A stretch of 26,433 bases of DNA from a virus, in the IMG/VR virus record IMGVR_UViG_3300013138_001101, positions 1-26,433 of that record; one strand, written 5' to 3'. Of this stretch, positions 2 through 16,548 are shown one piece after another. Position 1 is the stretch's first letter. The number at the start of each line of letters is the position of its first letter. The translations under genes and the position numbers were made by a program. The notes beneath the pieces were generated by a model. It was not told the origin of the DNA, made no database searches, and saw nothing but the letters and a program-made list of their open reading frames with translations.

Positions 2-145
2 ATAAACGGCACTCCACTAGACGGCATCTGCACCTGCGGATATGGCTGGGAGTGCGTGAGGCATGACGATTGGGACAAGATGTTCTCTGCGGAATGGCTA
101 GAAGCAAACAAGTCGCCGAACGACCAAGCTGAGCGACTGACATGA
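2..145 (+). CDS. C-terminal end of a small hypothetical protein (cut by window edge)
   Basis: This is an open frame entering from the left edge and ending in TGA; the last 47 residues are visible. It contains a Cys cluster (CTCGYGWEC) followed by an acidic/aromatic helix-like stretch and a polar tail. The Cys spacing could be half of a metal-binding site, but the partner cysteines would lie outside the window. The stop overlaps the ATG at position 142 in an ATGA arrangement. The last residues lie inside an attC-like hairpin element, so the C-terminus may be encoded by the element rather than conserved. I do not recognise the family. Confidence 0.5.
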   Translation: MNGTPLDGICTCGYGWECVRHDDWDKMFSAEWLEANKSPNDQAERLT

Positions 146-223
146 GCGCCGACACCAACGCCACGATTGCAACCGAGCCGCCGCCCGGCGCTCATGGCTG
201 TTCGCTCCAGCGCATGGTTAGGC
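115..223. repeat. attC-like imperfect palindromic element, copy A
   Basis: A 109-bp imperfect inverted repeat. Its ends are GCCGAAC (115-121) and GTTAGGC (217-223), one mismatch away from the RYYYAAC/GTTRRRY pair that bounds integron attC sites. Inside it, CATGAGCGCCG (141-151) pairs perfectly with CGGCGCTCATG (186-196), GAGCGA (131-136) with TCGCTC (202-207), and GCT (128-130) with AGC (209-211), leaving small bulges as in attC hairpins. A related copy lies at about 1031-1122. Membership of a true integron array is unproven, because no integrase is visible and the downstream gene appears to start inside the element. Confidence 0.5.
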
Positions 224-669
224 TGCGTCTCACTCCAATCTCTCTCGACGAAGCAAACGCCTACGTGTCCGAACACCATCGGCATCACGATCCGGTGACG
301 GGGCACAAATACAGCATCGCCATCGCTGACGAGGCAAACAATGTGCGGGGCGTCTGCATCGTCGGCAGGCCGGTGAGCCGGATGGCTGACAATGGCTGGA
401 CGCTCGAAGTGAACCGCTGCTGCACGGACGGCGTGGCGAACGGATGCTCCATGCTGTATCGCGCCGCGTGGCGAGCTGCAAAGGCGATGGGCTACACGCG
501 ACTGATAACCTACACGCTGCCGGAAGAAGGAGGCGGAAGTCTCAAAGGTGCGGGCTTCCGACTGGTCGGCGAGCGCGGCGGCGGGACGTGGAATCGGCGT
601 GAACGTCCGCGAGTGGATACGCACCCGACGCAAACTAAATGGCTGTGGGAATTGCATGACGCCGCATAA
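142..669 (+). CDS. XF1762-family GNAT-like protein
   Basis: From about residue 25 onwards the protein matches what I know of the XF1762 family, GNAT-like acetyltransferase-fold proteins common in phages and mobile regions. The visible blocks are PISLDEANAYVSEHHRHHDP, GHKYSIAIAD, GRPVSRMADNGWTLEVNRCC, CSMLYRAAWRAAKAMGY, LITYTLPEEGG and a C-terminal RPRVDTHPTQTKWLW. The biochemical substrate of this family is not established. The family usually begins close to the RLRLTPISL segment, so translation may really start at the ATG at 214. The first 24 residues are Thr/Pro/Ala-rich, unlike the rest, and are encoded by a hairpin element. The upstream gene overlaps the annotated start by four bases. No clear ribosome-binding site precedes either start. 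Confidence 0.85.
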   Translation: MSADTNATIATEPPPGAHGCSLQRMVRLRLTPISLDEANAYVSEHHRHHDPVTGHKYSIAIADEANNVRGVCIVGRPVSRMADNGWTLEVNRCCTDGVANGCSMLYRAAWRAAKAMGYTRLITYTLPEEGGGSLKGAGFRLVGERGGGTWNRRERPRVDTHPTQTKWLWELHDAA

Positions 670-1316: not shown

Positions 1317-1667
1317 ATGCACGGTGACTGGAAATGCCCGTTTAGCAGGAGGTTGCAGCGTAAAGCCGCGGAGCGCGGGCGGCGCATGGCAAAGGCTCGC
1401 TGGGCGCTGGACCGAGAACGCCGCCACCGGCTTGCCGCTTTGACAGCCGAACAATGCCCCAACCACATCGTCCGCCGAATCGTCGTCATTGACGGCGAGC
1501 AGAGCGTGAGCGAGACGGTGTTCTGGTCGTGGGACTCCGATCGGGAATGGCAGCGCAAAGAGCGCAACGCCTTGCGTCAGAACAACCCATCCCAGTTCAA
1601 CGACGCCCAAGCCGTGTCTCCGCCTTCTCCGGCGCTTCCGTCAACAGTCGCGATCTTCAGTTCGTAG
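1317..1667 (+). CDS. small basic hypothetical phage protein
   Basis: A 116-residue protein. The first 87 residues look genuinely coding: a KCPF motif, then a strongly basic helix (SRRLQRKAAERGRRMAKARW), then a beta-rich part (VRRIVVIDGEQSVSETVFWS) ending in DREWQRKERNALRQ. Similar small KCPF-starting basic proteins occur in environmental phage genomes, without known function; nucleic-acid binding is only suggested by the charge. The ATG lies just beyond the structured segment, with no obvious Shine-Dalgarno site. The final 30 or so residues run antisense through the end of the convergent nozzle-like gene and are Pro/Ser-rich, so the natural C-terminus may have been lost or extended. Confidence 0.6.
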   Translation: MHGDWKCPFSRRLQRKAAERGRRMAKARWALDRERRHRLAALTAEQCPNHIVRRIVVIDGEQSVSETVFWSWDSDREWQRKERNALRQNNPSQFNDAQAVSPPSPALPSTVAIFSS

Positions 1668-3385
1668 TAGAGATTGACCCCGCGTTCCAGCATGTCCCAA
1701 TCGGTCGCGTCGGCTTCATCCGCACGCAACCCGGCGGCCTGCAACTGCGCCGGCGACAGGCTGTAGCCGCATGCGAGCGGCAGTGAGTCAATCTCCCGCC
1801 ACAACACACGACAGTTGTTATCGGTCGTATTGGGGTCTTGGATGGTGGGGCTGTTGCCGATCCGCAGGTGGACGAACAAAGCTGACGCATCACGCGTGTC
1901 GTGTTCCAGTTGCAGCGACCGCAGCGTCTTTTCCCGTGGGTTGGCCCCAAACGGCACCAATCCGCGCAACAGCGACATATACCCCACCTGCACTGCAACC
2001 GCTGTCGTAATGTCCAGCGACGGATCTCCTCCGGTCAATGTCACCATCTCACGGTAGAACACGCCGCCAATCTGCTTGATGCAGTAGTCGGTGGCACTGG
2101 CCGCCAGAAACTTCGGCTCTCCCTTGCACAATCCAGGCTGATCTGAGTTCTGGCTGAACCGGCCAAAGGCGGTAAACCCGTGATCCATGTAGGAGGCTGT
2201 CTGATATGCTGACTGGACTGAGTCAGTGTTGAAGCTGAGTACGAGCGTGCGGCTGTTGATCCCCAACTCGTCGGCGGAATTGGACACGGTTGGATACGAG
2301 AACCACACCTCCTTGCTCATGCCTTCCGCGTCCGGCACGCAATCCGCCACAGGCGACTGGCAATAGAGCGCGTCAATGCGGTCGGCGCCCTCGTACATGA
2401 GTCCTGACCCGCGTTGAAGCCAGTCAGGCGAGGCGGGTGCTGTCGAATACCGGTTGATCCAGTAAATGGTGCTGCGGCCCAGCCAGAAGATTTCGCTGCC
2501 GGTGGATACAACCGCGTTGTCGAAGGCAAGGCATGCGTTGCGGTTCTTCGGGTCGGTGTACCACTTCTGGAATCCAAACGGAGACGTGTCGGTCGTGGAA
2601 GTCTGCGGGAACATCTTCCATATTGAGCGGTCGGTGAAGATCCACACAACGCCCGCCATCTGCACGGCGTTCAGTATCTCCTCGCCGTAGTCGAGGTCTT
2701 GGTAGTTGGCAACACTCTCGGCGCCGCCTTCCTCAAATGGCTCGTCATCCCAATGCTCCGCGTTGTTGAAATCGCTCCATTGGACGCGTGACGAGAACCG
2801 TTCTGTGCCGGCGCCCGGATTGTCGAGTTCCTTGTCCACCAGCAGGTTCATCAGCACGACGACGCCGGCAAACTCAATGGCCACCTTGGCTGCCCGGACC
2901 GGCTCGGTGACATTTTCAACCAGCAGGCTGGCCACACTCTCAGCCGACGCCTCGCCCAACGTGAAGATTTTCACCGGGTCCACGTTGTTGGTGAGGATAA
3001 TCTTGTCCCGCAGCGAGGCAAAGCTCCACTGCCCGCCGCCCATGCCTGTCAGGAGGTCAGCCCACTCCCCGGTGGTATTGTTCAGCAGTGAGACGCTGTT
3101 GGATGTGGCGTCTAGCAACTCCCGAACGCCGTCCGGAGACGCGCTCTCATACAGCCGCGTGATGGGATAACGGGTGCCGTTGCGATGGTAGTGGTCCCAG
3201 TTGCTTGATGACGACCCGGAACTCAACCGGGCGAAGCCGGCTTGTCGGCACAGCTTGCCACTGCTGTTGATGGCCCAGTTTTGCTTGTACCGGAACGCCC
3301 CCGAGGTCAGGTCGGGCGGGCGGCTTCGGGTGTCGAGCATCTGATTGAGCGGGGTTTGGAGCACCGTTTTCCATGCAGCTTTCAT
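1577..3385 (-). CDS. putative tail nozzle / DNA-stabilisation protein (P22 gp10-like beta-propeller)
   Basis: A 602-residue protein without a signal peptide. The N-terminal GKLCRQAGFARL and the segment SSRVQWSDFNNAEHWD (about 198-213) follow the pattern I associate with P22 gp10-type and T7 gp12-type tail proteins: an early 'G-x-L-x-x-R-x-G-F' and a beta-propeller blade with 'SD...pexW'. Many short beta segments follow (VVWIFTDRSIWKMF, EIFWLGRSTIYWI, EVWFSYPTV). In podoviruses such proteins form the distal tail tube that plugs the packaged genome. The ATG is preceded by AAGAAAGGG. It is the last gene of the minus-strand operon, separated from the adaptor by the glycan cassette. A receptor-binding hub is an alternative. 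Cysteines are sparse. Confidence 0.55.
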   Translation of the reverse strand: MKAAWKTVLQTPLNQMLDTRSRPPDLTSGAFRYKQNWAINSSGKLCRQAGFARLSSGSSSSNWDHYHRNGTRYPITRLYESASPDGVRELLDATSNSVSLLNNTTGEWADLLTGMGGGQWSFASLRDKIILTNNVDPVKIFTLGEASAESVASLLVENVTEPVRAAKVAIEFAGVVVLMNLLVDKELDNPGAGTERFSSRVQWSDFNNAEHWDDEPFEEGGAESVANYQDLDYGEEILNAVQMAGVVWIFTDRSIWKMFPQTSTTDTSPFGFQKWYTDPKNRNACLAFDNAVVSTGSEIFWLGRSTIYWINRYSTAPASPDWLQRGSGLMYEGADRIDALYCQSPVADCVPDAEGMSKEVWFSYPTVSNSADELGINSRTLVLSFNTDSVQSAYQTASYMDHGFTAFGRFSQNSDQPGLCKGEPKFLAASATDYCIKQIGGVFYREMVTLTGGDPSLDITTAVAVQVGYMSLLRGLVPFGANPREKTLRSLQLEHDTRDASALFVHLRIGNSPTIQDPNTTDNNCRVLWREIDSLPLACGYSLSPAQLQAAGLRADEADATDWDMLERGVNLYYELKIATVDGSAGEGGDTAWASLNWDGLF

Positions 3386-3400: not shown

Positions 3401-4321
3401 TCATGTCACAGGGAAACTAAGCTGGAATCGGTCCAGCAACCAACTGAAATCACGCGTGAAGATGGACCGGTTGTATGCCCGCTCCGTCTCCACCAAATGC
3501 CAGTCTTCGTACAGCGCCCGCTTGGCAGTGCCCAGCAAGCCGTCCTTGGGCAGCCGCCGTTCCAGCCGTTCGGCATGCTCTGGAGGCAGGCAGGTGTGCA
3601 TGCAGAACAGCTTGTTGTACAGCGGATGCCACGGCGCTGCGGATGGCAGCCCGCGCTTGCGGAACTGATGTCCAATTCTGACGCCCTTCAGCATGCGGAT
3701 TTCCCCGCCAGCCAGCCATGTCTTGAGCGACAGCATTGCTTCGTCCACGCCGTAGGAGCGCAGACACCGCAGCGGTTGCAGCCGCAGAAAGAACTCGCGT
3801 GGAAAGAAGTAGCAGGCGCCCATCATGGCGGGCAGTGCATAATCGTCGCCGGGCTGTTCTGGCTGCCACACCACCTCCAACACTTGATTCGCACCTTTGC
3901 GGTTCCGATCCGGCCCGTAGAGGTTGAAGGTGGCCCCGTGATAGAACGAAGTGGAACGCAACAGATCCATGTTGCCGCGCTCCAGCCCAACGCACTGGGC
4001 GCAGTGGGCGATGTTGGGGCGACCGGCAGTCCGTTGCTCTGCCGCGGCGTACCACCCCGGCTCGAAGCGCATGTGCGAGTCAACGAACAGCAGGTAGTCA
4101 CCTGACGCGCGCAGTGCGCCAATGGTGCGGGCTGGGCCTACGCCCACCCGCCGGTTGCAACGGATCACGCGGGCGCCCATTACCTGCGGCACCGGCTGGC
4201 GCGAGGCGTCGTCCACCACCATGATCTCAACCGTATCTCCAACAGTGGCGCGGATGGACTTGATCGTCTCAACACACTCAGGCGTATCGTCGCGGGAGGG
4301 GATGATGATGGAGAGGGTCAC
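3401..4321 (-). CDS. glycosyltransferase resembling polypeptide GalNAc-transferases (GT-A, GT2/GT27-like)
   Basis: I place the start at GTG 4321, overlapping the upstream stop as GTGA, because the GT fold begins at once (TLSIIIPSRDD) and the longer frame upstream is antisense-like. The product has 306 residues. Visible motifs: VEIMVVDDAS (31-40, nucleotide site); FVDSHMRF (79-86), where DSH matches the DxH metal motif of polypeptide GalNAc-transferases rather than the usual DxD; YGVDEAMLSLKTWLAGG (190-206), matching their 'WGGExxExSFRxWxCGG' block; and VRIGHQFRKR (214-223), matching 'VGHxFR'. There is no membrane anchor and no ricin-type lectin domain, so it would act in the cytoplasm. The acceptor is unknown; a Ser/Thr-rich virion protein is a reasonable inference. 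Confidence 0.8.
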   Translation of the reverse strand: MTLSIIIPSRDDTPECVETIKSIRATVGDTVEIMVVDDASRQPVPQVMGARVIRCNRRVGVGPARTIGALRASGDYLLFVDSHMRFEPGWYAAAEQRTAGRPNIAHCAQCVGLERGNMDLLRSTSFYHGATFNLYGPDRNRKGANQVLEVVWQPEQPGDDYALPAMMGACYFFPREFFLRLQPLRCLRSYGVDEAMLSLKTWLAGGEIRMLKGVRIGHQFRKRGLPSAAPWHPLYNKLFCMHTCLPPEHAERLERRLPKDGLLGTAKRALYEDWHLVETERAYNRSIFTRDFSWLLDRFQLSFPVT

Positions 4322-4599
4322 GGCGGAATGATGGACCACTTGGCAAGCACCGCCTTTATGTACGGCACGCTTTGATGACTCGGATAGTGTCGCAAGATGG
4401 TCGGCTGGCACGAGTCGCACGGGTTGTCGAAGCTGCTGCGGACCGGGTGATAACCGTAGCAGCGGGGACATCGCAGGTATGTCTCATCGGCCTTGCGCTG
4501 CTCGGTGCATTCACGCCCCAACCGCAGGGCCAACCGCACTGACTGGCTTGTGACTTGGCCTGTTTCGAGCAAGGCGTCTCTGGCTTGGTTGGGTGTCAT
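4318..4599 (-). CDS. small Cys4 zinc-ribbon-like protein within the glycan cassette
   Basis: 93 residues. The N-terminal half is a charged helix pair. The middle holds CPRCYGYHPVRSS followed by NPCDSCQ, a CxxC-x(n)-CxxC arrangement typical of zinc ribbons. The C-terminal part is helical with aromatic residues. Its ATG overlaps the stop of the methyltransferase gene as ATGA, and its stop overlaps the GTG of the next glycosyltransferase, so it is translationally embedded in the cassette. No enzymatic motif is visible. It could be an accessory or scaffolding subunit, or a DNA-binding regulator. I do not recognise the family. Confidence 0.7.
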   Translation of the reverse strand: MTPNQARDALLETGQVTSQSVRLALRLGRECTEQRKADETYLRCPRCYGYHPVRSSFDNPCDSCQPTILRHYPSHQSVPYIKAVLAKWSIIPP

Positions 4600-5858
4600 G
4601 GCAACACTTCTGGGAAGACGCCGGGGATAATGAACTTGCCACCAAGTTCCGTGTAGCGTGAGTTCTTCTCAATAATCTCCTTTGCGTAGTTCCATGCAAA
4701 CAGCACGGCATAGTCCGGACGCTCACGCAGCAGCGCGCCCTCGTCAACGATTGGCACCGCACTTCCCGGACTGGAGCACCACTGCTTCTGTGGTGTGTTG
4801 TCGGTGATGAATGCGATCTCCTTGCGCGTGAATCCGCAGGCGTTCATCCAAACAGTGCTCTTGGCTGAAGCTCCAAGCCCGCACACGGTTTTGCCCAACC
4901 CCACAAGCTCCTGCACCTTCGAGCGCAATGCCGAAATGGCCAGCCGTGCGCCGTCGTCAAACGCGGCCAAGTCGCTTCGACTCACCTTCTCGGCGTCTAT
5001 CTCCTCCAGCGTGTATGCCTCACTCCACTTGGCGCTGTCCCTCCGGCGCAGGGTCGCCGCCACGGTGCCGCCGTGAATGGTGAAGTGGTGAATCCTGTGA
5101 ATGCGAAACGGAGTGTCTTCCACCGCCGCGCGCAAACCGCGCAGGGTGAGATAAGACAGGTGTTCATGGTACACGGTGTCGAACTCGCAGCGGGCCAGCA
5201 TGTTCAGCGCGTAAGGCGCCTCGATGACGATACGCGTGTCGCGCTCGGCCAGCGCGTCCAGCGCCGACAGGGCGGATTCCCAGTCTTCAATGTGACAGAA
5301 CACATGGCGGGCCAAGATGACATCCGGAATGGGAATGGCCTGCTTGGCAACCGACGCGGTATCCTTGTCAAACAGGCCGCAAATGCTGGTTGCATCTGGG
5401 TGGTTTCGGCGCGAAATCTCCACAAGATTCTCCGCCGGGTCAATCCCGCACGCCGCCGCTCCGTTGGACATGGCAAACCCCATGAAATCACCATCGTTGC
5501 TGCCAATCTCCACCAGAGACGTGATGGGGGCATCGTTGATGAGAGCACCCCACAGGCCCTCAAAATGGCGGCGCATGGTGGCGCTCTTGCTGGTCACATA
5601 GCTGTAGTGGTTGTAGAGGATGTCTGGCCGAACCACCACATCCAACTGCAACAGGCTGCACTTGGGGCAGTGCATCAGCCGGAGCGGAGCAAACCCCGCC
5701 CGCTCCTCACGTTCCTTTCGGAAGTCATTGGCCAATGGTTGAAGCCCTAGATCGAGCACAAGATCGAGAGCCTCAGTGCTGTGAATCGCTTTAATTCCCG
5801 GGGCGTTTGGGTCCTTGCCATAGCCGCAGGCCCGGCAGTGTGTGTGTGGTAGATACAT
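4596..5858 (-). CDS. SAM-dependent sugar C-methyltransferase (three-domain NDP-hexose type)
   Basis: 420 residues with the full three-part layout of TylC3/NovU-like sugar C-methyltransferases. There is an N-terminal zinc-binding part with CRAC (8-11) and CPKC (64-67) plus LGLQPLANDF. A Rossmann SAM domain follows with EIGSNDGDF (117-125) and ARHVFCHIEDWESAL. The C-terminal domain has YHEHLSYLTL (230-239), HGGTVAATLRR and GLGASAKSTVWMNACG (327-342). Family members methylate NDP-4-keto-6-deoxyhexoses at carbon 3, often C-3 branched sugars in antibiotics or surface glycans. Here the substrate would have to come from the host or from genes outside the window. Length is normal for the family and all motifs look intact. 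Confidence 0.88.
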   Translation of the reverse strand: MYLPHTHCRACGYGKDPNAPGIKAIHSTEALDLVLDLGLQPLANDFRKEREERAGFAPLRLMHCPKCSLLQLDVVVRPDILYNHYSYVTSKSATMRRHFEGLWGALINDAPITSLVEIGSNDGDFMGFAMSNGAAACGIDPAENLVEISRRNHPDATSICGLFDKDTASVAKQAIPIPDVILARHVFCHIEDWESALSALDALAERDTRIVIEAPYALNMLARCEFDTVYHEHLSYLTLRGLRAAVEDTPFRIHRIHHFTIHGGTVAATLRRRDSAKWSEAYTLEEIDAEKVSRSDLAAFDDGARLAISALRSKVQELVGLGKTVCGLGASAKSTVWMNACGFTRKEIAFITDNTPQKQWCSSPGSAVPIVDEGALLRERPDYAVLFAWNYAKEIIEKNSRYTELGGKFIIPGVFPEVLP

Positions 5859-5863
5859 GGTGG

Positions 5864-6466
5864 TTATTTGTGGAGCGCCTCTCCATGCGTGACGCAGGTA
5901 AACATGGGGTGGTTGCGTAGATTGCCAGAAACGGCCTTGAACCTCAAACCGCAGTACTTCTCAGCCATCGCGACGGCGATGGGAAGTGTGAGTTGGTCTC
6001 GGTGGGAATACGAGCAGATCAGCGACCACCAGATCGAATTGAACATTGCGACCGCCCCGGTGTGCCGGCGGAAAAGGACGGTTGCCTCCAACAGTGGGAG
6101 TGCATCCGCCTCCCTTGGGTAGTCCGACAACACGCGTTCCGCCTGCGACGCGGACTCGTATCCGAAGTTGACCACCGCCTCCACTTCCTGCCGGATGGTG
6201 CTGCGGCAGTGATGTGAGAAAATGGCCAGTTCCACCCCGTCTGTAAGTGACGAGAAAAGCTCGTCTTCAGGAGCGTTGACACAGACATTTCCGTCAATCC
6301 AAACGCTTCTGTGATGTTCCCTCCATATCTCTGGAGTCAGGTGGTTCAGCACCTTGTACCGCTTGGCCTCCATGCGCGGGGACCCAAGCCGTCCGCTTGG
6401 TTGATCGAAGACGCGAACGTCGTCCCGGCGGGCATCGTATCCGCCAAAGATGGAAGTGTAGATCAT
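5864..6466 (-). CDS. TOD1/MUCI70-like glycosyltransferase (PF04765-type)
   Basis: 200 residues beginning directly with IYTSIFGGYD (2-11), the hallmark of the TOD1/MUCI70 glycosyltransferase-like domain (formerly DUF616). Further family blocks are RMEAKRYKVLNHL (31-43), SVWIDGNVCV (54-63, the putative donor/metal site) and FSHHCRSTIRQEVEA (83-97). Bacterial members occur in surface-polysaccharide clusters and act as single-domain transferases; the donor is not defined. The ATG overlaps the preceding methyltransferase stop (ATGA), and five bases separate the stop from the next ATG. Length is typical for the single-domain form. Confidence 0.82.
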   Translation of the reverse strand: MIYTSIFGGYDARRDDVRVFDQPSGRLGSPRMEAKRYKVLNHLTPEIWREHHRSVWIDGNVCVNAPEDELFSSLTDGVELAIFSHHCRSTIRQEVEAVVNFGYESASQAERVLSDYPREADALPLLEATVLFRRHTGAVAMFNSIWWSLICSYSHRDQLTLPIAVAMAEKYCGLRFKAVSGNLRNHPMFTCVTHGEALHK

Positions 6467-7095
6467 CGGCGCTTCTCTATAACCGCAAGCTCCCTCCAGA
6501 ACGCCACCTTGGCAATATCTCCACAGCCACGGTGCATGTGCATGATGAGCTTGTGCAGGTACTCCATCTGGGTGAGTTCACATGGATTGCAGTAGCCCGG
6601 CTGGCCAGAGCAGGCCAAATCTTCAATGCAGTAAAGCCCACCGGAGACTACGTGCGGCCATAGCTCCTTGAACGATGTCACGATGCCGGATGCTGTGTGC
6701 CCACCGTCATCAATGATGATGTCCCATTCTCCGCCGTTGGATTTGATGAAAGAATCCCAGAAGCCCACAGATGACTGGTCGCCTTGTGTGAAGTGATAGC
6801 GGGGATGTTCGATCTGCGCGTCGAAAGGCTTGCGGTACGGCTTTCCCGGGTCTGGAACATGCGCGTACCGCGGGTCAATCTCGCCGTTCGGCTTGTTGAT
6901 GTCCACCCCGTAAATATTGGCCGCGCTGAAGAACTCAAGCCACATGAGGATTGATCCGCCACCGCCAACGCCGATCTCCAAGATTTTAGCTGGGGCGTGT
7001 TGGTGGGGTTTGAACAACTCATAGTACGGCTCGGTGTAGCCATGCCCGGCCTTGTCAGTGCCGTGTTTTAAGGCTAATTCATGCAGTGCGTTCAT
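6463..7095 (-). CDS. class I SAM-dependent methyltransferase, probably O-methylating a sugar
   Basis: 210 residues. The start HELALKHGTDKAGHGYTEPY and the following ILEIGVGGGGSILMW (38-52, SAM motif I), IYGVDIN (61-67), WDIIIDDGGH (124-133) and GGLYCIEDL (152-160) match macrocin-type/TylF-related methyltransferases seen in glycan gene clusters. Asp and His in IDDGGH are the usual metal-binding candidates. I infer O-methylation of a sugar hydroxyl from the neighbourhood. It overlaps the upstream glycosyltransferase by 17 bases and the downstream one by four. It carries no membrane segment. Confidence 0.85.
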   Translation of the reverse strand: MNALHELALKHGTDKAGHGYTEPYYELFKPHQHAPAKILEIGVGGGGSILMWLEFFSAANIYGVDINKPNGEIDPRYAHVPDPGKPYRKPFDAQIEHPRYHFTQGDQSSVGFWDSFIKSNGGEWDIIIDDGGHTASGIVTSFKELWPHVVSGGLYCIEDLACSGQPGYCNPCELTQMEYLHKLIMHMHRGCGDIAKVAFWRELAVIEKRR

Positions 7096-7684
7096 GGGCT
7101 TTGAGGATCATCGCTCTCACTTGCTGTTTTTCGGCATACGCCCGCGCCCAGAAGTGGTGCAAAAACGGTTTGGCTTCCGGCTCGTGGGTTGATGGATTGG
7201 AGACGGCGGATTCTGGGATGCGGGAGATGCCATCCCTGACGGATCTGAAGTTCTCCTCCATGAACTTTAGCGTGGCTTGGTCGGTGCATCCATGTGCATC
7301 ACTATCCTTCTGCCCCAGAAACCACCACGCATCCAACAGCCTGCGCGACCATTGGCAGTTAAGAAGACCGAACACGCCGGCGCAGAGGCCGTACGCATCT
7401 TGACTCACATCCATAGGAAGCCCTGAGAGGATGCTGGACAGGTCAAAATCATCCCGCAGCAGCGCAACGTCTGCGTCAATCCAAAACACGTAATCCGCCC
7501 CCGAACCATCCAGCCGGGCGCGGAGCAGAGGCACCTTCGCCCAACTGGCCCCGATGGGTGATGTGCCATTCTGGAAATGGAACGCGTAGCCGCGTCTGGC
7601 GGCGTACTGCCTTATAGCCGGAACGGAAACATCTCCAATCGTTCGGAAGAAGTCGTCATGCTGCATCACTATCTCAATCTTCAT
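7079..7684 (-). CDS. DxD glycosyltransferase, GT34/GMA12-MNN10-like
   Basis: I choose ATG 7684 (201 residues) because it overlaps the upstream stop as ATGA and begins the fold at once (MKIEIVMQHDDFF). The longer frame, reaching back to about 8002, is low-complexity Arg/Gly sequence and antisense-like. Key motifs are WAKVPLLRARLD (48-59), YVFWIDADVALL (65-76) with the DxD metal motif DAD, LCAGVFGLLN (100-109), CTDQATLKFM (133-142) and LHHFWARAY. This pattern fits retaining galactosyl/mannosyl transferases of the GMA12/MNN10 type. Donor and acceptor are unknown. The absence of a membrane anchor implies cytoplasmic action. Confidence 0.8.
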   Translation of the reverse strand: MKIEIVMQHDDFFRTIGDVSVPAIRQYAARRGYAFHFQNGTSPIGASWAKVPLLRARLDGSGADYVFWIDADVALLRDDFDLSSILSGLPMDVSQDAYGLCAGVFGLLNCQWSRRLLDAWWFLGQKDSDAHGCTDQATLKFMEENFRSVRDGISRIPESAVSNPSTHEPEAKPFLHHFWARAYAEKQQVRAMILKAHERTA

Positions 7685-8430
7685 AGCTCGGCGCTCCGCC
7701 TTGGAGAGTGTGACCACACCAACAAGGCCCGGGCCATGTCCCTTTCGGATTGCTCCGGACGGATGCTGTGGCACATGTGGTAGTACAGCATCTCGGGAAC
7801 CACTTTCATCGCCACTCCGCTGTTCACCATCTGCTTCTGAAGGTCTTGCTGGTCGAATCCCCACCCCACCAACGCCTCGTCGTACCATCCTCCCATCGCC
7901 ATTGCGAGCTTGTTGGTGCAGAAGCTTGGGCCATCTTGAGCAACCTCCGCGCGCATGGGGTTTCCCGTACAGGCGGAAAGCGCATCCACGTTTTCCCTCC
8001 ACGGAAGGCTGTCCATCGTCTTGGTTGATTGCTCATCAAGCAGCGTGTACCACGGCGTAGCGTAGCACATGGGATTATCCCCCGCCGCGCCAAGCATCTG
8101 TTCACAGAAATCATGGCGATACACACAGTCCGCCCGCATCATCACGAAGATTGGGTGTCTCGCGGCTCGGATGGCCCGGTTGCCAGCCCATGATAGCGTC
8201 TTGATCTGATAAGCTTCATGGCGGACGAAGTGAAACTCGGATTCAAACTTCCCGGTGTCCACATGCTGGCACACCACGTTGGTAATCTCCTCGATGCTGA
8301 ATGGCGAGTTGTTGTCGAAGAAGATGAACTGACTCGGCGCAACCGTCTGGCGCGACACCGTGTAGATGCTGCGTTCCAGATGCTCCAGTTCAACCGAGCG
8401 GAACATTTTGAAAACAAGCGACCACTTCAT
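7681..8430 (-). CDS. glycosyltransferase family 2-like, with galactosyltransferase-type C-terminal motif
   Basis: 249 residues. The N-terminus MKWSLVFKMFRSVELEHLERSI is a GT-A beginning; FIFFDNNSP (35-43) marks the nucleotide site; VMMRADCVYRHDF (96-108) is at the DxD position with RAD, a common variant; GGWYDEALVGWGFDQQDL (180-197) matches the GGxxE...GWGxED block of Glyco_transf_7C-type galactosyltransferases and supplies the likely catalytic acid. The gene follows its upstream neighbour with a single base between TGA and ATG, and its stop overlaps the next ATG. The reaction is probably inverting; the sugar is not deducible. Confidence 0.8.
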   Translation of the reverse strand: MKWSLVFKMFRSVELEHLERSIYTVSRQTVAPSQFIFFDNNSPFSIEEITNVVCQHVDTGKFESEFHFVRHEAYQIKTLSWAGNRAIRAARHPIFVMMRADCVYRHDFCEQMLGAAGDNPMCYATPWYTLLDEQSTKTMDSLPWRENVDALSACTGNPMRAEVAQDGPSFCTNKLAMAMGGWYDEALVGWGFDQQDLQKQMVNSGVAMKVVPEMLYYHMCHSIRPEQSERDMARALLVWSHSPRRSAEL

Positions 8431-8431
8431 A

Positions 8432-9163
8432 TCACCCGGAGTCGGCGGAGGCTGAAAAGACCCGCTTCAACTCATCGGACGCATTGCGCCACATGGTTGT
8501 ATGCCGGTCCTGCACCAAGCAGTTGCTCTGGTCGCCGCGCCTGAAAATGTTGGGAGGAGTGCGCCACTGATCCTTGCGGTACGCCCCATCCCAAGTGACC
8601 AACCTTACGGGATACCCGCAATCCTCGAACCATGTCGAGAAGTTCCAGCAGCCGGACTCGAACCTAAACCCGTCATCGCGGGAGTCCACGCGATACGGAT
8701 ACTCCGACAACACCGCCGGAGAGCACGCGAAGCAAGAGGTGCGGATGTGTGGGTTCGGCCCAGTGTTGCTCCCCAGCGGGCAGTACTCGTATGATGCCGA
8801 CGCCCCAAACAAACCCTCTCCAACCTCCAGGCGCGTTGCGACAAGCCGGGCAAGCCACCCGGGCTTCCAGAAGTAGGTTCTGGAATTCATAAACACAGCG
8901 AAATCGCTGGTCAGGCGTTCCGCCATCGTTTGAAATGCGCCGATGTCCCATCCGTTTGACGCAATCTCCTCAAAGCGGCATTTGATTCCACGGAACAACG
9001 ACCGTTCGCGCTCGGTCGCTACACCATTGCTGCAACAAATGACGACCTCGTGATCTGCTCCGGCTGAGTATTCCCGATACGTGTCCGCCCACATCTCCGC
9101 GCACGCCAGAAACTCGGGGGTCAGGTTGTCCATTGGAAGCTGGTAGATCACTTCGACCTTCAT
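8432..9163 (-). CDS. putative GT-A-type glycosyltransferase
   Basis: 243 residues. The middle shows EIASNGWDIGAFQTM (66-80) followed by DFAVFMNSRTYFWKPGW (87-103), a layout in which the second segment occupies the DxD position (here NSR), then HIRTSCFACSPAVL and FESGCWNFSTWFEDCGYPV, the latter with a Glu/Asp where GT-A enzymes place the catalytic base. This resembles transferases of polysaccharide clusters whose conserved start is 'NxGWDxGA'. A canonical DxD is missing, so an inactive or metal-independent enzyme is possible. Its ATG overlaps the stop of the giant upstream transferase (ATGA). The family assignment is tentative; the glycosyltransferase-like fold is better supported. Confidence 0.65.
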   Translation of the reverse strand: MKVEVIYQLPMDNLTPEFLACAEMWADTYREYSAGADHEVVICCSNGVATERERSLFRGIKCRFEEIASNGWDIGAFQTMAERLTSDFAVFMNSRTYFWKPGWLARLVATRLEVGEGLFGASASYEYCPLGSNTGPNPHIRTSCFACSPAVLSEYPYRVDSRDDGFRFESGCWNFSTWFEDCGYPVRLVTWDGAYRKDQWRTPPNIFRRGDQSNCLVQDRHTTMWRNASDELKRVFSASADSG

Positions 9164-11382
9164 CGCTCAGACTCCTCAATCAGTTGCCATCCCAAGGAGT
9201 GCTTCTCAGGTGAATACGACCTGCCGTGAAACCCAAACGACAACCATTGATTTCCGAATGTCTCCGTCGAAAACTTCAGCGCCAGTTCCCGCGGGGCAAA
9301 GCGCATTCCTTTTTTCTCGAACTCAGCGCGGTGCTTGCGGCAAACCCAGTAGTCCGATGCAATGGTTTCCTCTGCCGGGTACGGGATCGTCAGCTTGGTG
9401 GCAAGCAACCGGTGGCTTTCGATGTTAAAGCCCCCATTCCCCACCACCCCATCTATCCACGGGGCACCGATGTAATCGTACTCCAAAAAGCGGTCGCTCC
9501 ACAGGTGATGCTGGATTGGGAACCCATCTTCATGCACCGACATCGCGAAGTCGCCGTCAATGTGTTTGGGGAGTTCTGAGCAGCAGAAGCGATTCCAGTC
9601 TGTAATGCCGCCAAGCGCAGGTATCTGCACGACCTCGCCCTCCAGCAGATCCCGCTCCGGCTTGGTGCAGCAGAAGAACTTGATGGCGCGGTGACGCGCC
9701 GTGCGGGCACAGTAATTGAGCACGCGCACCGTATGATCTATAAGGTCAGCGTTGGGCGACCAGCAGCAGGACCATAAGACGACGCGGTCGAGATTAAGCC
9801 GAGTCTTCGGCAGTTGGGTGCGCGCTCTCAACGTCGTATTCCACTTCCACAGGTTGTCGCGGTAGAGCTTCTGATTGTGCTTCTGCGCTGGGGCTGAATC
9901 ATACCTGCGCGGGTTGTTCCATTGAGTTGCATGGCGAATGTGGCCCACCCACCCGCGTTCCATTTCGCTACCCGGGAAGCAGGTTGAGAGCTTGCTCCTC
10001 GGGGCGGCCACGCCAAGCTTGTGCCGGATGAAGCACGTCAGCCAAATGTCGAACTCGCTGGCGCCGAGGATGAAATCCGGGATGTCATCCCAATGCTCTC
10101 GCAACCAAGACGCCCGGAATGCGAACAGATCCCTGCCGTTGTGGTTTTTATCTACGTTGGCCTTCCCCCATTGCGACGCAGCACCAGTCGGCGGTCTGCG
10201 GTTGAACTCGCACCTCGGGATGGACACGGCGGGATAGCGGCCAAGATGCTCACGCAGGGCGCCGGGAAGATCGGGATGGAGAACGGTGTCGTCGTTTGTC
10301 CACATCACGATCTCGTCACCTAACGCGCACGCGTCGAGCGCAGGCTTCAGAACATCCTTCAAATAGGGAAGGTCCAATGAATCCCCAATATCCTTGGCGC
10401 TGCGGAGGTACTGGGAATAGTGATGCGGCACAACCCCAAGCGTGAGGTAACACACATCCCAAGAATCCCACGCATACCGCTTGCGTTGCAATTCCACTGG
10501 GCTTCTGATGATGTGTCTCTCTACAGCGTGATGAATGACGGGGGACTGTTTTGTCCGTGCCACGCATACCTGCCGGACCTCATGGTTCATCAACTTGGAG
10601 ACAAACGCCGCAGCCGATCTGGATAGTGCATCATTCCTGATTGGCCTCAACTCGACACGCCCACGCTTGATCTGTCCCCGCATGAGCCGCTGGTGCAGAT
10701 CGCGCTCCGAACGGCTCCAGCCATCCATCTGCCCGGCCCTGTCGTCACCCATCCCAGAGATGTGGTACACCCCGTTTCCCCAGCAGTAAATGAAGCTGAT
10801 GTCTTTGCCGCCGAGTTCAAGCCGTAGTCCGCCGGCCTTGGTGATGCGCGACACGAAGTTGCGGTCCTCACCGCAGTTCATCGAGTCATACTTGCCCGCC
10901 TTGATCCAAGCGTCCCGCGTGAACGCTACAACATTGGCCGATCCCTGAACCACCTTCTCAATCCTGCCGCCCAACGAGTAGAGTTGGCTTCCCAACCAGA
11001 CCCACGGGTAGTCCGCGAAGTTGTTCCCGAAGTTGCTCAGATGATGCGGCAGGTAGTAATCGTCGTCATCCCACGTAACAATGTGCGTGCCATGACTGGC
11101 TTCGATGGCCATGTTGCGCGCCTCACCCAAAGACGGCGGACGACGGCTGCAGTTGATGATGCGGATGCGCGGGTGCGGATCGGCCAGCACCAACTGCTGC
11201 TTGGGCCATGTGTTGAACACGACCAACTCACTCGGCCCTTGGTAGTCTTGGGCAAGATAGGCCGCGATGGCTTCTTCAAGGTGTTCCGGCCTGCCCGCCG
11301 TGAGGCAGATGGCGGACAAGAACGGCAGGTTGTTCGGCGCGTCGCTCACAGTGCCAAAAGTGTCACCAATGCCCGCGTCCAT
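9160..11382 (-). CDS. three-module glycosyltransferase fusion (GT2 + GT-like + DUF5672)
   Basis: I choose ATG 11382 (740 residues), 13 bases after the upstream stop; the longer frame overlaps the vWA gene. Module 1 (about 20-240) is a GT2: LSAICLTAGRPEHLEEAI, LGEARNMAIEASHGTHIV, TWDDDDYYLP (104-111) and a GED at 171-173. Module 2 (about 305-515) looks like another GT-A-like domain: VCYLTLGVVPHHYSQYL, IVMWTNDDTVLHPDLP (358-373), FILGASEFDIWLTCFIRH. Module 3 (about 535-730) is DUF5672-like: FPIQHHLWSDRFLEYDYIGA, VVGNGGFNIESHRLL (646-660), EETIASDYWVCRKH. One protein could therefore add up to three sugars in series. It is the first gene of the glycan cassette and directly follows a virion-protein gene. 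Confidence 0.8.
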   Translation of the reverse strand: MDAGIGDTFGTVSDAPNNLPFLSAICLTAGRPEHLEEAIAAYLAQDYQGPSELVVFNTWPKQQLVLADPHPRIRIINCSRRPPSLGEARNMAIEASHGTHIVTWDDDDYYLPHHLSNFGNNFADYPWVWLGSQLYSLGGRIEKVVQGSANVVAFTRDAWIKAGKYDSMNCGEDRNFVSRITKAGGLRLELGGKDISFIYCWGNGVYHISGMGDDRAGQMDGWSRSERDLHQRLMRGQIKRGRVELRPIRNDALSRSAAAFVSKLMNHEVRQVCVARTKQSPVIHHAVERHIIRSPVELQRKRYAWDSWDVCYLTLGVVPHHYSQYLRSAKDIGDSLDLPYLKDVLKPALDACALGDEIVMWTNDDTVLHPDLPGALREHLGRYPAVSIPRCEFNRRPPTGAASQWGKANVDKNHNGRDLFAFRASWLREHWDDIPDFILGASEFDIWLTCFIRHKLGVAAPRSKLSTCFPGSEMERGWVGHIRHATQWNNPRRYDSAPAQKHNQKLYRDNLWKWNTTLRARTQLPKTRLNLDRVVLWSCCWSPNADLIDHTVRVLNYCARTARHRAIKFFCCTKPERDLLEGEVVQIPALGGITDWNRFCCSELPKHIDGDFAMSVHEDGFPIQHHLWSDRFLEYDYIGAPWIDGVVGNGGFNIESHRLLATKLTIPYPAEETIASDYWVCRKHRAEFEKKGMRFAPRELALKFSTETFGNQWLSFGFHGRSYSPEKHSLGWQLIEESER

Positions 11383-11395
11383 GTCAATGCTGAAA

Positions 11396-14344
11396 TTACG
11401 GAAACGATCCCAAGTCTGTGAACACCGACAGGTAGAACCAAGTCCAACCGGAGTAGAGCGGAGTGTCATCAACGACCCACAGCTTCCACGAACCACGGGC
11501 GGTTTCTCCAATCAAATCCGCAAGCGATGTGGAGAACGGCCCAGACGGGCCCGGAGATGGGAATGGGTCAATTTGCACTCCGTAAACCTTGGGTAGATAA
11601 AATGGGCCCACATCAACCACAGAGACGGCGCGAGAATGTTCAGGTATGTCCACCGTTCCCTCTGAATGTAAAACGAACAATCGCTCTACGGACGATCCGA
11701 TGTCTGCTCCCTGAGAATTGCCGAACAAGTAAACGCAGGTCCCATTAGGGGACTCCAAGATCATGTGAACGTCACGAGGGTCCCCATGTGCCATGCTAAT
11801 TTCCAACTGCACATTGCTGATGATTATAGCGTCCTCCGGGCAGTCTATGTACTTGACCTGCGGATACAACTGCGCTTTGGCCGGCCCAACTGCGCCGCTC
11901 GCCCTGTCTAAGATCGTGTTGAGTTGAAGATTGTTCGATCCCGCGCACACCAGCGCCGCCTCGGCGGCTGTCTTGGCCAACGCCGCGGCCTGTTCCTGCG
12001 CGTCCTGCTGGCTGATGTAGCTGGTGTAGGTCGCACTGCGCGTCACGTCCGATCCAAGGCCACTTTCACAGTGGGCTATGTATTGCGCGGTTTCCGTCCA
12101 GTAAGCCACACAATTCAACCTTGACTGTGCCAGCGCCAGCGCCGCATCGGTCGCAAGCTTGTCGGCGTGGACCTGACTGATCTCGCTGGTGGCCGAGGCT
12201 GTGGCGCATTCTTCGCCTTGCTCAAGCCCGTCCGGCTCCATTCCCTCCGGGCACTCCGCGCACGCCTCCTGCGTGCTGGTGTATGTCTTGGGCGGCGTGT
12301 AGCCTGCCTCAATGTCACTCAACGGATTTGGGTCCTGCGTCTGCACCGGCGGCGGCGAATCAAGGCACCCCTCGCCGTAGCAGAAATAGCCGTAGCCGTA
12401 GCCGTATGTGCCGTCGTCCAGCAGATGGTAGAGTGTGCCAGTGCCGCAGTCAGGCGCCACATACGTCGGATTTTCGTCGTCGAAGTCGTCACTGAATTCC
12501 GTGCTGCCGTCTGTCAGGTTCAGTAGTCGCACCTGATCCACCAGCAGCCCGATGGAGTCGTAGCCGGCTGGGGTGGCGGTCTGTTGCACGGACAAAAACA
12601 CGTCGCCGGTGGATGGCGCGGTAAAGGACAGGTAGTATTCCTTGAAGTCCTGCTTGAAATCGCTGATGGCGATTTGCTGGTTCAGATGATAGATGGGCGT
12701 ACCCGTGGCGTTTGTCTCCGCCGGATAGATCGAATCATCCACCGCTCCGCTCGCGATGCTTGCAAGCATCGCTGTCTTGCGGGTGGTGTCGGCGTAGGTG
12801 GTCGAGTCCGGCGCCGCTTCCGCAATCAGATAGTATCGGCTCTCCGGGCTGGCGCCGGTCGTGCGGTAGATGCGAATGAGCGTGGCATTGACGTTGGCTG
12901 CAAGCGTTACGTTTACCTGCGCGTCTTCCGTGCTCACCGTCGCCGACGCCGCCGCGCTTGCATCCGTTTCTCCATTGGCGTTGACGTAGCTGTAGAGGTA
13001 GGAGTACGTCTCCGGAGAATCCAACGGCACGGCGCCTTCGGCAGTCACCGGAACTGGAGCGGCGGGGGTGTCCAGTCCGTCGTTGTTCCGCTCGAACACC
13101 TGCACGCGCAGCGCGTTGGGCGTGGCATTGATGCGCTGATTGCCGGCGATCTTGAGGGCCAGCGCGTACTGCTTGCCAAGTGTCACAGCGATGCTCGCCT
13201 CGGTGACGATCTTGCCTGAGTATTCCGCGCGGCTGCCCGCCATGTCGAGATACAGGCCGTTCCCGGGCAGCAGATCCATCACGCCGCCGCCCACCAAGTC
13301 AACGTGCCCTTCGGTCAAACGCCAGTTGGCGAACCCGCCGTAGTTGAGCTTGCCGGCGGGCACGTATTCGTCGCCTGTGTCAGCGCAGTTGCCTCCGCAC
13401 ACGTACGAGCGCAGGCCGGTCAGGTAAGCCAACGTCGCGTCCGCCGTGTCGTCGTGGGCGTTGATGAAGAACCCGCCGGTGGAGAATGCCATCAGTAGGT
13501 TGTACGCCGGCCCCCACGCGCGCACCCCCACGCACAACACAATCCCGCCGGACTGCTTGAAGTCGTTCAGCAGCGCAATGGGGTTGTCATCCGATGTGTA
13601 GGACGTGTCCGTGTCCTCACCGTCGCTCAACAGCACAATCATCTTGCGGTCGGCGCTAACTCCGGCCAGGGCGGTGACGGCGGCCTCCATCGCGTCGTAG
13701 AAGCTGGTGAGTTGCTGGGTCTGGACAAGGCCATCCACCAAGGCCGATACCGCCGCGGTGTCGGCGGACGGGGCGGAGTGCGTCGTCGCAACTTCCTTGG
13801 TGAACGAAACAAGCCCCACGGTGTCCTTGGTGGAGTTGACCGACTCAATGAAATCCTTCGCCGCTGCTTTGGCATAGGCCAGCTTGGAACCGTAATCTGC
13901 GTTGAACGCCTGCCCCATTGACTTGGTGACATCCACGACCACCATGAAGGCCGTGCTGATTTCCTCGCAGCACAACTCGCCCGTGAGCGTCGTGATCTCC
14001 GCATAGGCCGTCATGCCTTGATAGCTGGCGGAGATGGTGGCCGTGCCGGCAGCCAGTCCGGTCGCGTTGCCACTGAGGGCGCCAATGACCGCCACGTTCG
14101 GATCGGAGCTTCGCCAAACGCACGACGCGGTCACGTCTGTCTCAACGCCGCCTTGAAACATTGAAGCGGAGAACTGCACCGAGCCCAGTTCGCACAGCAG
14201 CGACACGCCTGGCTTCACAAGAAGCAACGGCGCTTGCGGGCAGGTGTCCGGGTTGTTGAGCGCGAACGCCGGGTCGGAACACCGGCTGTCCGGCGGCGGC
14301 GCTACATTCAGGCAGGGGGCTTCTGTGATGCGGCCAAAGCTCAT
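11396..14344 (-). CDS. large multidomain virion-associated protein: Ig-like, vWA, DUF642-like, P-domain
   Basis: 982 residues from ATG 14344, which overlaps the adaptor stop (ATGA). Residues 45-120 form a BIG2/Ig-like domain (VWRSSDPNVAVIGALSGNAT, GLAAGTATISASYQGMTAYA). Residues 130-315 are a vWA domain with MIDAS residues D138-x-T140-x-S142 (DVTKS), T213 and SDGED (240-244). Residues 335-420, plus a later half (YYLSFTAPSTGDVFLSVQ ... LLVDQVRLL), look like a DUF642/galactose-binding-like sandwich with an Fn3-like insert (YSYVNANGETDASAAASATV). Then come Cys-rich repeats like those of the adaptor, and finally a proprotein-convertase P-like domain (LEISMAHGDPRDVHMILESP ... GSWKLWVVDDTPLYSGW). 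The domain mix suggests adhesion or glycan binding on the virion. There is no signal peptide. Confidence 0.75.
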   Translation of the reverse strand: MSFGRITEAPCLNVAPPPDSRCSDPAFALNNPDTCPQAPLLLVKPGVSLLCELGSVQFSASMFQGGVETDVTASCVWRSSDPNVAVIGALSGNATGLAAGTATISASYQGMTAYAEITTLTGELCCEEISTAFMVVVDVTKSMGQAFNADYGSKLAYAKAAAKDFIESVNSTKDTVGLVSFTKEVATTHSAPSADTAAVSALVDGLVQTQQLTSFYDAMEAAVTALAGVSADRKMIVLLSDGEDTDTSYTSDDNPIALLNDFKQSGGIVLCVGVRAWGPAYNLLMAFSTGGFFINAHDDTADATLAYLTGLRSYVCGGNCADTGDEYVPAGKLNYGGFANWRLTEGHVDLVGGGVMDLLPGNGLYLDMAGSRAEYSGKIVTEASIAVTLGKQYALALKIAGNQRINATPNALRVQVFERNNDGLDTPAAPVPVTAEGAVPLDSPETYSYLYSYVNANGETDASAAASATVSTEDAQVNVTLAANVNATLIRIYRTTGASPESRYYLIAEAAPDSTTYADTTRKTAMLASIASGAVDDSIYPAETNATGTPIYHLNQQIAISDFKQDFKEYYLSFTAPSTGDVFLSVQQTATPAGYDSIGLLVDQVRLLNLTDGSTEFSDDFDDENPTYVAPDCGTGTLYHLLDDGTYGYGYGYFCYGEGCLDSPPPVQTQDPNPLSDIEAGYTPPKTYTSTQEACAECPEGMEPDGLEQGEECATASATSEISQVHADKLATDAALALAQSRLNCVAYWTETAQYIAHCESGLGSDVTRSATYTSYISQQDAQEQAAALAKTAAEAALVCAGSNNLQLNTILDRASGAVGPAKAQLYPQVKYIDCPEDAIIISNVQLEISMAHGDPRDVHMILESPNGTCVYLFGNSQGADIGSSVERLFVLHSEGTVDIPEHSRAVSVVDVGPFYLPKVYGVQIDPFPSPGPSGPFSTSLADLIGETARGSWKLWVVDDTPLYSGWTWFYLSVFTDLGSFP

Positions 14345-16548
14345 GGACAGGGTCCTCCGTAACAGATGTTCCACGCATTCTGAGTCGGACACGTCCGATT
14401 GACGAACGAGTTGGCAATTTGACTCCCCTCAATCTCACATTGGCTGTTGGCAATAAGCTGTGCCGTACTGTTCGCCTCGGCAACTGTTGATGCCACCGGC
14501 CCCCTCCCAACAGGCACCATGTAGTTGACCACGAAGCTTCTCTGCACGGGCTGCATTAACCCCCGGCACGTCATCACGAATGTCTTGCGACAGAACTTCA
14601 TCGTGTCATTGCTGTAAGACCCGACAGGCTCTCCGCCACACACCAAATCTTCCGTTGCGTTGGATAACGCCTTCGCCTCCGCCTCGTTATTGAGCGCATC
14701 CTGCACAGACTGCGAGTATTCCGGGGTAGCGTTGGTGATCGTTCTCCAAATGCTCTTTGCTTCCGCCACACCATCAACATCTGGTCCCTCTTGCCCTTCT
14801 GGACAACTGGCGGTTGCTTCTTTTCTGGCGTTGTAGTAGGTGCATTCCAGTTGTGCGTATGCCAAATCGTAGGCTGCGATTTTCGCCTTATCGGTGGCGT
14901 CATCTTCAGATTTCTCAGACGAGTATCCCCCACTATTAGGACCTCCGCGCGGGATTGTAATAGACACTGTTTGCCCTTCAGGAAGCGGGTTGTCATCGAA
15001 CGCCTTGCAGGACACGCTCACATCCACTTGGCGGTTCCAGTATGTATTTGTCACGCTTTCACAGACAAGCAATGCTTCAGCCTGACGCTTCGCCTCCTCG
15101 TACGCCAGTTCGTTTGCGTCCTCCTTGGACTTCGCGGAGCCAACCGTGTCCGCAGGAACGGTGTAGGTCTGGCTGGCGCCGGTCGTTCCAGAAGGACAGC
15201 GCGCTGTGTAAGGCTGGGCATCATTGTAATAGAGGGGCAGCGTGGAGTCTCCAGAAACTCCACGCGCATGGCTCGGTTCACACTCGCGGGCGCGCGTCTC
15301 CTCACGGCACTCATGCGCGAGGTCTTGCAACGCAAGGTTGAACTCGCGCTCGTACACGCGCATCTCCTCGATGTCCTTATTCTCGTCGCGGGCAATCTCC
15401 TTCTGCACCCACATCTTGACGGCTCGAATCAGGTCAGGATCGTCGTCAATCCGGTCGCCATCCGTCCACTCACGCTTGATACCATCCCAGCGCAGAATGA
15501 TCGTCTCAGTGGACTGAATCCACGGCGCCACCAGCACGCGTCCGCGCTCGACAGCCCAGTAGCCGCGCGTTGCCCTGCTCGTGGCGTCGGTGGAAGTCTG
15601 TGGGTAATGGTAGCCCAGCGGTAGCGGCGCAAGTCCGGTGGGCAAGCCTTCATCGGTTGGCACAGGCGCCACGCCCTTGCCGCCAAGGCAACTGGCTGGA
15701 ATGGCGAGATACAGGTCAAGCGGCAGGCAACAGCCACACCGCTGGCTGCCGGCGATATACTGCCTCAACACACACGCGTCCACCTGTTCGTACACGATCT
15801 CAGAGCACCAGTCACGCCCTGTCGCCGCCGTGGCGGTGCCTCCGGAAATCGTGAACGGTCCGAACGTAAGATTAAACAATGGATGAGTGATGGTGGTCGG
15901 TGTAATCTGTATTCGATATAGAAGATATTCGGTCGTATTCGTGAAGCTGACATCGAGGGCTTCGTCAACCGTCCAGTCTGGCGCGTCTTGTTGATCTATT
16001 TGCGTCCACGACGCCCCGTCGTTCGATGCCACAATCGTAAACGTTAATTCCTGCGCGCGGGCGGCGCGAAATACCAGCGTGAACTTCGTTGCCACGACTG
16101 CGGTGGAAAACCGGAACTCAGCGTAGGCGGGCGTTGTGAGGTTGAAAAACTCCCATGTGTTGGAGTTGACCAGCGCGTCCGTGATCTCGGTCGCTACAAT
16201 ACTCGCCCCACCGCTGGTTTTGGCAAACACGCCCGCGTAGTCACTGCTGGCACTATCTCCAAGCACCGCAGCCGGGCTGGCGTCAGCCTCATTCTCATTG
16301 TCAATCACGCTCAGGCGCTTGATCCGCGCCCGATAGAAGTCGAACGAGGTAAGCCCGCAGTTGTAGTGCGTGGCGCAGTGGGGCACCAGATCGGTATTGT
16401 TCTGCTGCCAACACTCGACGTACTTCTGAATCTCGATCAGCGCGTCCACGATGTACCGGTCATGGGCGGCCCGCCGGCTGCGCGGCTCGCCCGCCGACCA
16501 GACATCCTCGCGCACGCGGGTTTTGAGATCGAGAAGCGTGATGCTCAT
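14341..16548 (-). CDS. head-tail adaptor-like protein with discoidin-like insert and Cys-repeat tail
   Basis: 735 residues. Residues 1-85 (LLDLKTRVREDVW, HDRYIVDALIEIQKYVECWQ) and 325-425 (GYWAVERGRVLVAPWI, TIILRWDGIKREWTDGDRI, AVKMWVQKEIARDENKD) have the pattern of podoviral head-tail adaptor/gatekeeper proteins. Between them, about 100-235, lies a beta-sandwich insert resembling F5/8C discoidin domains (TFTIVASNDGASWTQID, TEYLLYRIQIT). The last 300 residues contain four repeats (about 447-497, 501-570, 576-638, 648-705) of the form Cys, 'YTVP/ITIP', Ala/Glu helix, Cys, similar to DUF5977-type repeats. Placement between the capsid and tail genes supports the adaptor call. The extensions are unusual and may project from the portal vertex. 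Confidence 0.6.
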   Translation of the reverse strand: MSITLLDLKTRVREDVWSAGEPRSRRAAHDRYIVDALIEIQKYVECWQQNNTDLVPHCATHYNCGLTSFDFYRARIKRLSVIDNENEADASPAAVLGDSASSDYAGVFAKTSGGASIVATEITDALVNSNTWEFFNLTTPAYAEFRFSTAVVATKFTLVFRAARAQELTFTIVASNDGASWTQIDQQDAPDWTVDEALDVSFTNTTEYLLYRIQITPTTITHPLFNLTFGPFTISGGTATAATGRDWCSEIVYEQVDACVLRQYIAGSQRCGCCLPLDLYLAIPASCLGGKGVAPVPTDEGLPTGLAPLPLGYHYPQTSTDATSRATRGYWAVERGRVLVAPWIQSTETIILRWDGIKREWTDGDRIDDDPDLIRAVKMWVQKEIARDENKDIEEMRVYEREFNLALQDLAHECREETRARECEPSHARGVSGDSTLPLYYNDAQPYTARCPSGTTGASQTYTVPADTVGSAKSKEDANELAYEEAKRQAEALLVCESVTNTYWNRQVDVSVSCKAFDDNPLPEGQTVSITIPRGGPNSGGYSSEKSEDDATDKAKIAAYDLAYAQLECTYYNARKEATASCPEGQEGPDVDGVAEAKSIWRTITNATPEYSQSVQDALNNEAEAKALSNATEDLVCGGEPVGSYSNDTMKFCRKTFVMTCRGLMQPVQRSFVVNYMVPVGRGPVASTVAEANSTAQLIANSQCEIEGSQIANSFVNRTCPTQNAWNICYGGPCP

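Follow-up and report, generated by a model that had tools for sequence, protein, structure and literature searches.

What a set of glycan-building genes does inside the structural operon of a phage is the question raised by IMG/VR record IMGVR_UViG_3300013138_001101, a fragment of an uncultured phage whose positions 1 to 26,433 (26,433 bases) were analysed whole and are referred to here as the window. An earlier note on this DNA had described nine same-strand genes carrying eight glycosyltransferase (GT) modules in six proteins together with two SAM methyltransferases, and had taken their place among virion genes as an argument for decoration of the virion.

A glycosyltransferase cassette lies between two virion genes

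The minus-strand gene order is portal, scaffold-like protein, presumed major capsid protein (MCP), adaptor-like protein, vWA protein, nine consecutive cassette genes and nozzle, the cassette filling positions 11382-3401 between vWA and nozzle as had been claimed.

23368-24975, plus strand: terminase
20716-22980, minus strand: portal (weak match to a PDB portal)
17217-18950, minus strand: presumed MCP, 577 aa (gene order and conservation only)
11396-14344, minus strand: vWA/Ig-like virion protein, upstream of the cassette (Pfam, PHROG)
9160-11382, minus strand: GTtri, first cassette gene; GT2, a conserved unassigned middle module and DUF5672 (Pfam, orthologs, module order)
8432-9163, minus strand: g8432, conserved protein of unassigned fold, 243 aa (homologs in the cassettes of contigs L072, L085 and L093)
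7681-8430, minus strand: GT2 glycosyltransferase (Pfam PF00535, E 3.1e-8)
7079-7684, minus strand: GT34-type glycosyltransferase, 201 aa from ATG 7684 (Pfam PF05637, E 3.8e-12; ATGA overlap, SD-like site)
6463-7095, minus strand: SAM methyltransferase, Methyltransf_24 type (Pfam E 6.6e-7; PHROG 21658, E 3.9e-29)
5864-6466, minus strand: TOD1/MUCI70 glycosyltransferase-like protein (Pfam PF04765, TOD1_MUCI70, E 5.6e-6, weak but above its cut-off)
4596-5858, minus strand: sugar C-methyltransferase type, Methyltransf_13 + 23 + 14 (PF08421+13489+08484; Pfam E 3.9e-32)
4318-4599, minus strand: small Cys4 protein, 93 aa, possible zinc ribbon (sequence; Pfam match sub-threshold only)
3401-4321, minus strand: predicted GT27-like polypeptide glycosyltransferase, last cassette gene, adjoining the nozzle gene, 306 aa, GTG start (profile and model)
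1577-3385, minus strand: nozzle-like virion structural protein, downstream of the cassette (PHROG 3287, E 1.5e-17; PDB 9nwi_Y, E 1.3e-4)
142-669, plus strand: Mom-like DNA modification gene, downstream of the nozzle gene on the opposite strand (PHROG 1384, E 1.3e-37)

The claim that overlapping starts and stops lock the cassette into the operon held. ATGA overlaps join GTtri to g8432, the 7681-8430 GT2 gene to the GT34 gene, the Methyltransf_24 gene to the TOD1 gene and the 4596-5858 methyltransferase gene to the Cys4 gene; a GTGA overlap joins the Cys4 gene to the last gene, so that the likely start of the latter is GTG 4321 rather than 4471. The GT34 and Methyltransf_24 genes overlap by 17 nt, the remaining junctions from vWA through the cassette to the nozzle are gaps of 1-15 nt, and the vWA gene itself has an ATGA overlap with 14341-16548. 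Promoter, terminator and Rfam scans gave no result above chance.

Pfam recognized GT2 domains in the 3401-4321 and 7681-8430 genes and at the N-terminus of GTtri, whose C-terminus is DUF5672. The g8432 product had no match in Pfam or PHROG, and none in the PDB even as a 4-member profile. The GTtri middle module had no match of its own in a profile search, and was left unassigned because the AlphaFold model of GTtri gave a pLDDT of 43. As neither showed detectable GT homology, the count supported by domain matches is six predicted GT-type modules in five proteins, rather than eight in six; both methyltransferases (4596-5858 and 6463-7095) were upheld by Pfam. The set had also been called complete, which it is not, since the window's cassette holds no sugar-nucleotide synthesis gene; one relative, G025, has an NAD epimerase in its own. 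Transmembrane segments were found in none of the cassette proteins, the highest 19-residue mean hydropathy being 1.36.

When isolated phages were searched by tblastn, no homolog of portal or vWA was found, and GTtri was matched only by its C-terminal (DUF5672) part. IMG/VR, scanned with the last cassette gene as well as with portal, vWA and MCP, yielded relatives, several of them 65-78 kb. A same-strand cassette fills the vWA-nozzle slot in G011, G018, G025, G031, G037 and G039, with GTtri at or near its start and a 3401-type gene at or near its end, a recurrence which argues that the arrangement is more than chance. Across related uncultured phages GTtri usually follows vWA and the last cassette gene precedes the nozzle; of the 19 contigs with full-length GT27-like orthologs, some of them near duplicates, 16 have a nozzle gene on the same strand within three sizeable genes downstream of the ortholog. 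Cassette and nozzle are inverted in G013, and G019 carries its 3401-type gene and nozzle on the far side of the terminase. In a more distant clade (G009, G015, G016, G022) the nozzle directly follows vWA, and the GTtri homologs of G015, G016 and G022 are located outside that gap; the embedding is thus a property of one clade and not of all relatives, and operon position is by itself a weaker argument for virion decoration than had been stated.

The last cassette gene encodes a GT27-like enzyme

Although Pfam detected nothing beyond GT2 in the 3401-4321 product, a profile built from 15 orthologs and run against PDB sequences returned polypeptide GalNAc-transferases (ppGalNAc-Ts, family GT27) as all of its best 16 matches (E 6.7e-27 to 2e-18), followed by a chondroitin synthase at E 9e-9. 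A GTtri profile searched against the PDB gave no GT27 match, indicating that the match of the last gene is not a generic GT2 effect. The AlphaFold (AF2) model of the enzyme had a pLDDT of 93.4, and the best 50 Foldseek matches to it were all GT27. In VIA-align the model superposed on residues 136-441 of GalNAc-T2 with Z 31.2 and 2.3 A over 282 residues; the first non-GT27 entry scored Z 20.8.

GT27 enzymes hold Mn2+ through a DXH motif and a distal histidine, which in T. gondii GalNAc-T3 are D276, H278 and H414 (PMC11074326). The corresponding triad, D81, H83 and H218, is invariant in all 15 orthologs.

4073-4081, minus strand: codons of D81-S82-H83, DXH metal motif (role by homology)
3668-3670, minus strand: codon of H218, third metal ligand (role by homology)

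The likeness to GT27 thus extends to the DXH...H metal triad and to the fold of the catalytic domain across all 306 residues. In contrast to the known family members, the phage protein has no membrane anchor and stops at the end of the catalytic domain, so that the C-terminal ricin-type lectin domain is absent; the WGGEN motif of GalNAc-T2 is replaced in the orthologs by WGx[D/E]E, suggesting that the donor may not be UDP-GalNAc. For the last two reasons the protein was filed as GT27-like and not as a GalNAc-transferase. By predicted fold and intact metal triad, it is related to the animal enzymes that initiate mucin-type protein glycosylation. Should the virion-glycosylation reading set out below hold, a fold of protein O-glycosylation, represented among the solved structures here by enzymes of animals and one protist, would be placed inside phages.

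Isolated phages yielded no full-length match to the GT27-like protein, and a narrow profile scan of cellular genomes found only distant relatives, some with a DSHMRFEPGWD motif, plus one closer Paenibacillus protein. A cellular homolog from Paenibacillus flagellatus (L167) contains DAHVRFEPGWD.

The presumed capsid protein ends in a threonine-rich tail

The MCP was called from the order portal, scaffold, this protein and adaptor in relatives; as a 15-member alignment it had no convincing match in the PDB, PHROG or Pfam. It ends in a threonine-rich tract.

17220-17261, minus strand: mucin-like tail at the C-terminus of the presumed MCP, YPTTTTTTTPTTPQ, candidate acceptor (sequence)

The peptide taken as candidate acceptor sequence is GLTYPTTTTTTTPTTPQ. 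The tracts use a mixture of threonine codons and are therefore not slipped DNA repeats. Runs of 5 or more Thr occurred in 3 of 467 proteins from ten relatives, and all three were the presumed MCP.

A Thr tract at the MCP C-terminus or past the core was present in 11 of 12 GT27-positive large contigs and in none of 6 that were GT27-negative, an association which is essentially one clade contrast and not phylogenetically independent, since the MCP tree requires just two to three changes of the trait and leaves too few independent pairs. The MCPs of the window, G011, G018, G019, G025, G031, G035, G037 and G039 terminate in the tract; those of G030 and, more weakly, G013 have it beyond the core, inside an extension of the C-terminus; G036 has the enzyme but no MCP tail. 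G031, G035, G037 and G039 had been found via the GT27-like gene, and their MCPs were read only afterwards.

Threonine-rich proteins also lie beside the enzyme elsewhere. The vWA protein near the GT27-like gene is P/T-rich in L094, and a protein beside the gene in L089 has a Thr/Pro-rich tract. On the 204-kb contig L092, a fibre-like protein (8414-9700) with FN3-like and LamG-like parts around about 85 residues of poly-Thr lies 52 nt upstream of the gene; L099:7619-8302 encodes about 75 consecutive Thr 1.6 kb upstream. Runs of at least 5 Thr were found at 6 of 20 GT27 loci, compared with 0 of 52 control GT2 loci (Fisher p 2.5e-4, approximate because L099 and L100 had already been recognized as GT27-like and transferred to the enzyme loci when the controls were picked) and 0 of 10 far-clade loci. 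Testing in the opposite direction, from poly-Thr tracts towards the enzyme, gave a negative result, with weak matches at just 2 of 80 loci; poly-Thr tracts are common in phage proteins, mostly with no GT27-like gene nearby.

The presumed MCP of L158 and of L030 has a C-terminal extension; in L158 the Thr tract precedes this extension, which is similar to repeats found in the vWA and adaptor proteins.

The cassette probably glycosylates virion proteins

We reasoned that the cassette is likely to encode a mucin-like O-glycosylation by which the phage modifies its own virion proteins, followed by extension and methylation of the glycan. Structural genes and cassette would be expressed together, late in infection; the GT27-like enzyme would place a first sugar, of whatever donor, on threonines of the capsid protein's tail in the cytoplasm; GTtri, with its several modules, and the other transferases would then lengthen the glycan, in an order we can only propose, and the two methyltransferases would modify its sugar residues. 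Virion-protein O-glycosylation is favoured because it accounts together for the GT27-like fold, the operon position, the Thr tail, the absence of membrane segments and the lack of thymidylate-synthase-type genes in the 12 relatives searched; virion decoration, the earlier note's reading, is thus retained on new grounds.

The acceptor might instead be another virion protein, such as vWA, nozzle or a tail fibre, with the MCP tail merely a flexible linker. The tracts beside the gene in vWA (L094), the fibre-like protein (L092) and other proteins (L089, L099) speak for this, as does the frequency of poly-Thr in phages with no such enzyme nearby; we nevertheless consider it unlikely, given that the window's only C-terminal Thr tract, among the genes examined, is on the presumed MCP and that the tail persists in relatives whose MCPs share only 44-59% identity. 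Still less likely is an alteration of the host cell surface, for exclusion of other phages or receptor masking, by a cassette that reached the late operon through chance of acquisition. GTs of serotype-converting phages are a known class (PMC12619734), but the membrane-spanning flippase or transferase that is a trait of serotype-conversion (gtr) cassettes is absent here, no cassette protein spanning the membrane, and both the GT27 fold, a protein glycosyltransferase fold, and the structural-operon position in many relatives point elsewhere.

Sugar hypermodification of phage DNA is a role that GTs play in other phages (Pyle et al. 2024, as cited in PMC12619734), and the window has its Mom-like gene at 142-669. 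The GT27-like fold and the place beside virion genes make this reading very improbable, and a search covering the thymidylate-synthase route of base modification found such a gene in 0 of 12 relatives, most of these contigs, like the window, being fragments. We give equally little credence to a host protein as the target, glycosylated by the GT27-like enzyme to aid infection: the sequence is compatible with a host acceptor, but none of the analyses pointed to one, and the operon position and the Thr-rich virion proteins that neighbour the gene in several contigs weigh against it.

To our knowledge, glycosylation of the phage particle has been shown in only a few phages, and no description of mucin-type glycosylation in phages was found in the literature searched. 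The closest precedent for virion-protein O-glycosylation is mycobacteriophage capsid glycosylation: Che8 and its relatives are reported to carry glycans at the C-termini of capsid and tail-tube subunits (Freeman et al. 2023, via PMC11256854 and PMC12619734). Phage-encoded GTs are common to both systems. The Che8 capsid and tail tube end in Ser and the capsid has no Thr-rich tail; unlike the cassette, three Che8 GTs are encoded at the end of the genome, away from the structural operon, and none of them matches the GT27-like profile. The closest functional parallel is chlorovirus PBCV-1 (A111/114R, A064R), in which virus-encoded, cytoplasmic capsid glycosylation involves multi-domain GTs, sugar methylation and a conserved core glycan (PMC7826918). 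PBCV-1, however, is a eukaryotic virus with N-linked glycans (PMC7826918), and the likeness drawn here is one of function.

Middle genes of the cassette turn over between conserved ends

The middle genes of relatives are of the same kinds as those of the window, GTs and methyltransferases, but mostly not orthologous to them. Between L088 and L089 the GT27-like genes share 97.5% identity and the nozzles 97%; despite these near-identical flanks, four of the middle genes of L088 have no homolog in L089. GTtri is itself modular: relatives keep the GT2 module, followed by a different inserted module and then by the middle module or DUF5672.

With its first and last enzymes conserved and its middle changing fast, the cassette could vary the surface glycan as a serotype is varied. 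The phage probably coats its own particle with sugars, in a glycan that differs from one phage to the next. The fuller proposal, to which we assign an even chance, is of a family of uncultured phages with mucin-type O-glycosylation, in which a cytoplasmic GT27-like enzyme starts glycans on capsid Thr tails and fast-changing GTs and methyltransferases between two conserved genes provide every phage with a surface glycan of its own, making the cassette the phage equivalent of a bacterial serotype locus. If the cassette does glycosylate virion proteins, one operon would unite a variable locus for glycan synthesis with the predicted initiating enzyme and its predicted acceptor sequence, and which phages glycosylate their capsids, and how, would become testable through searches for GT27-like genes and Thr tails.

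HNH-type endonuclease genes occur within two cassettes, at L014:4124-4915 (judged by eye) and L067:3542-4099, and are possibly linked to the gene turnover.
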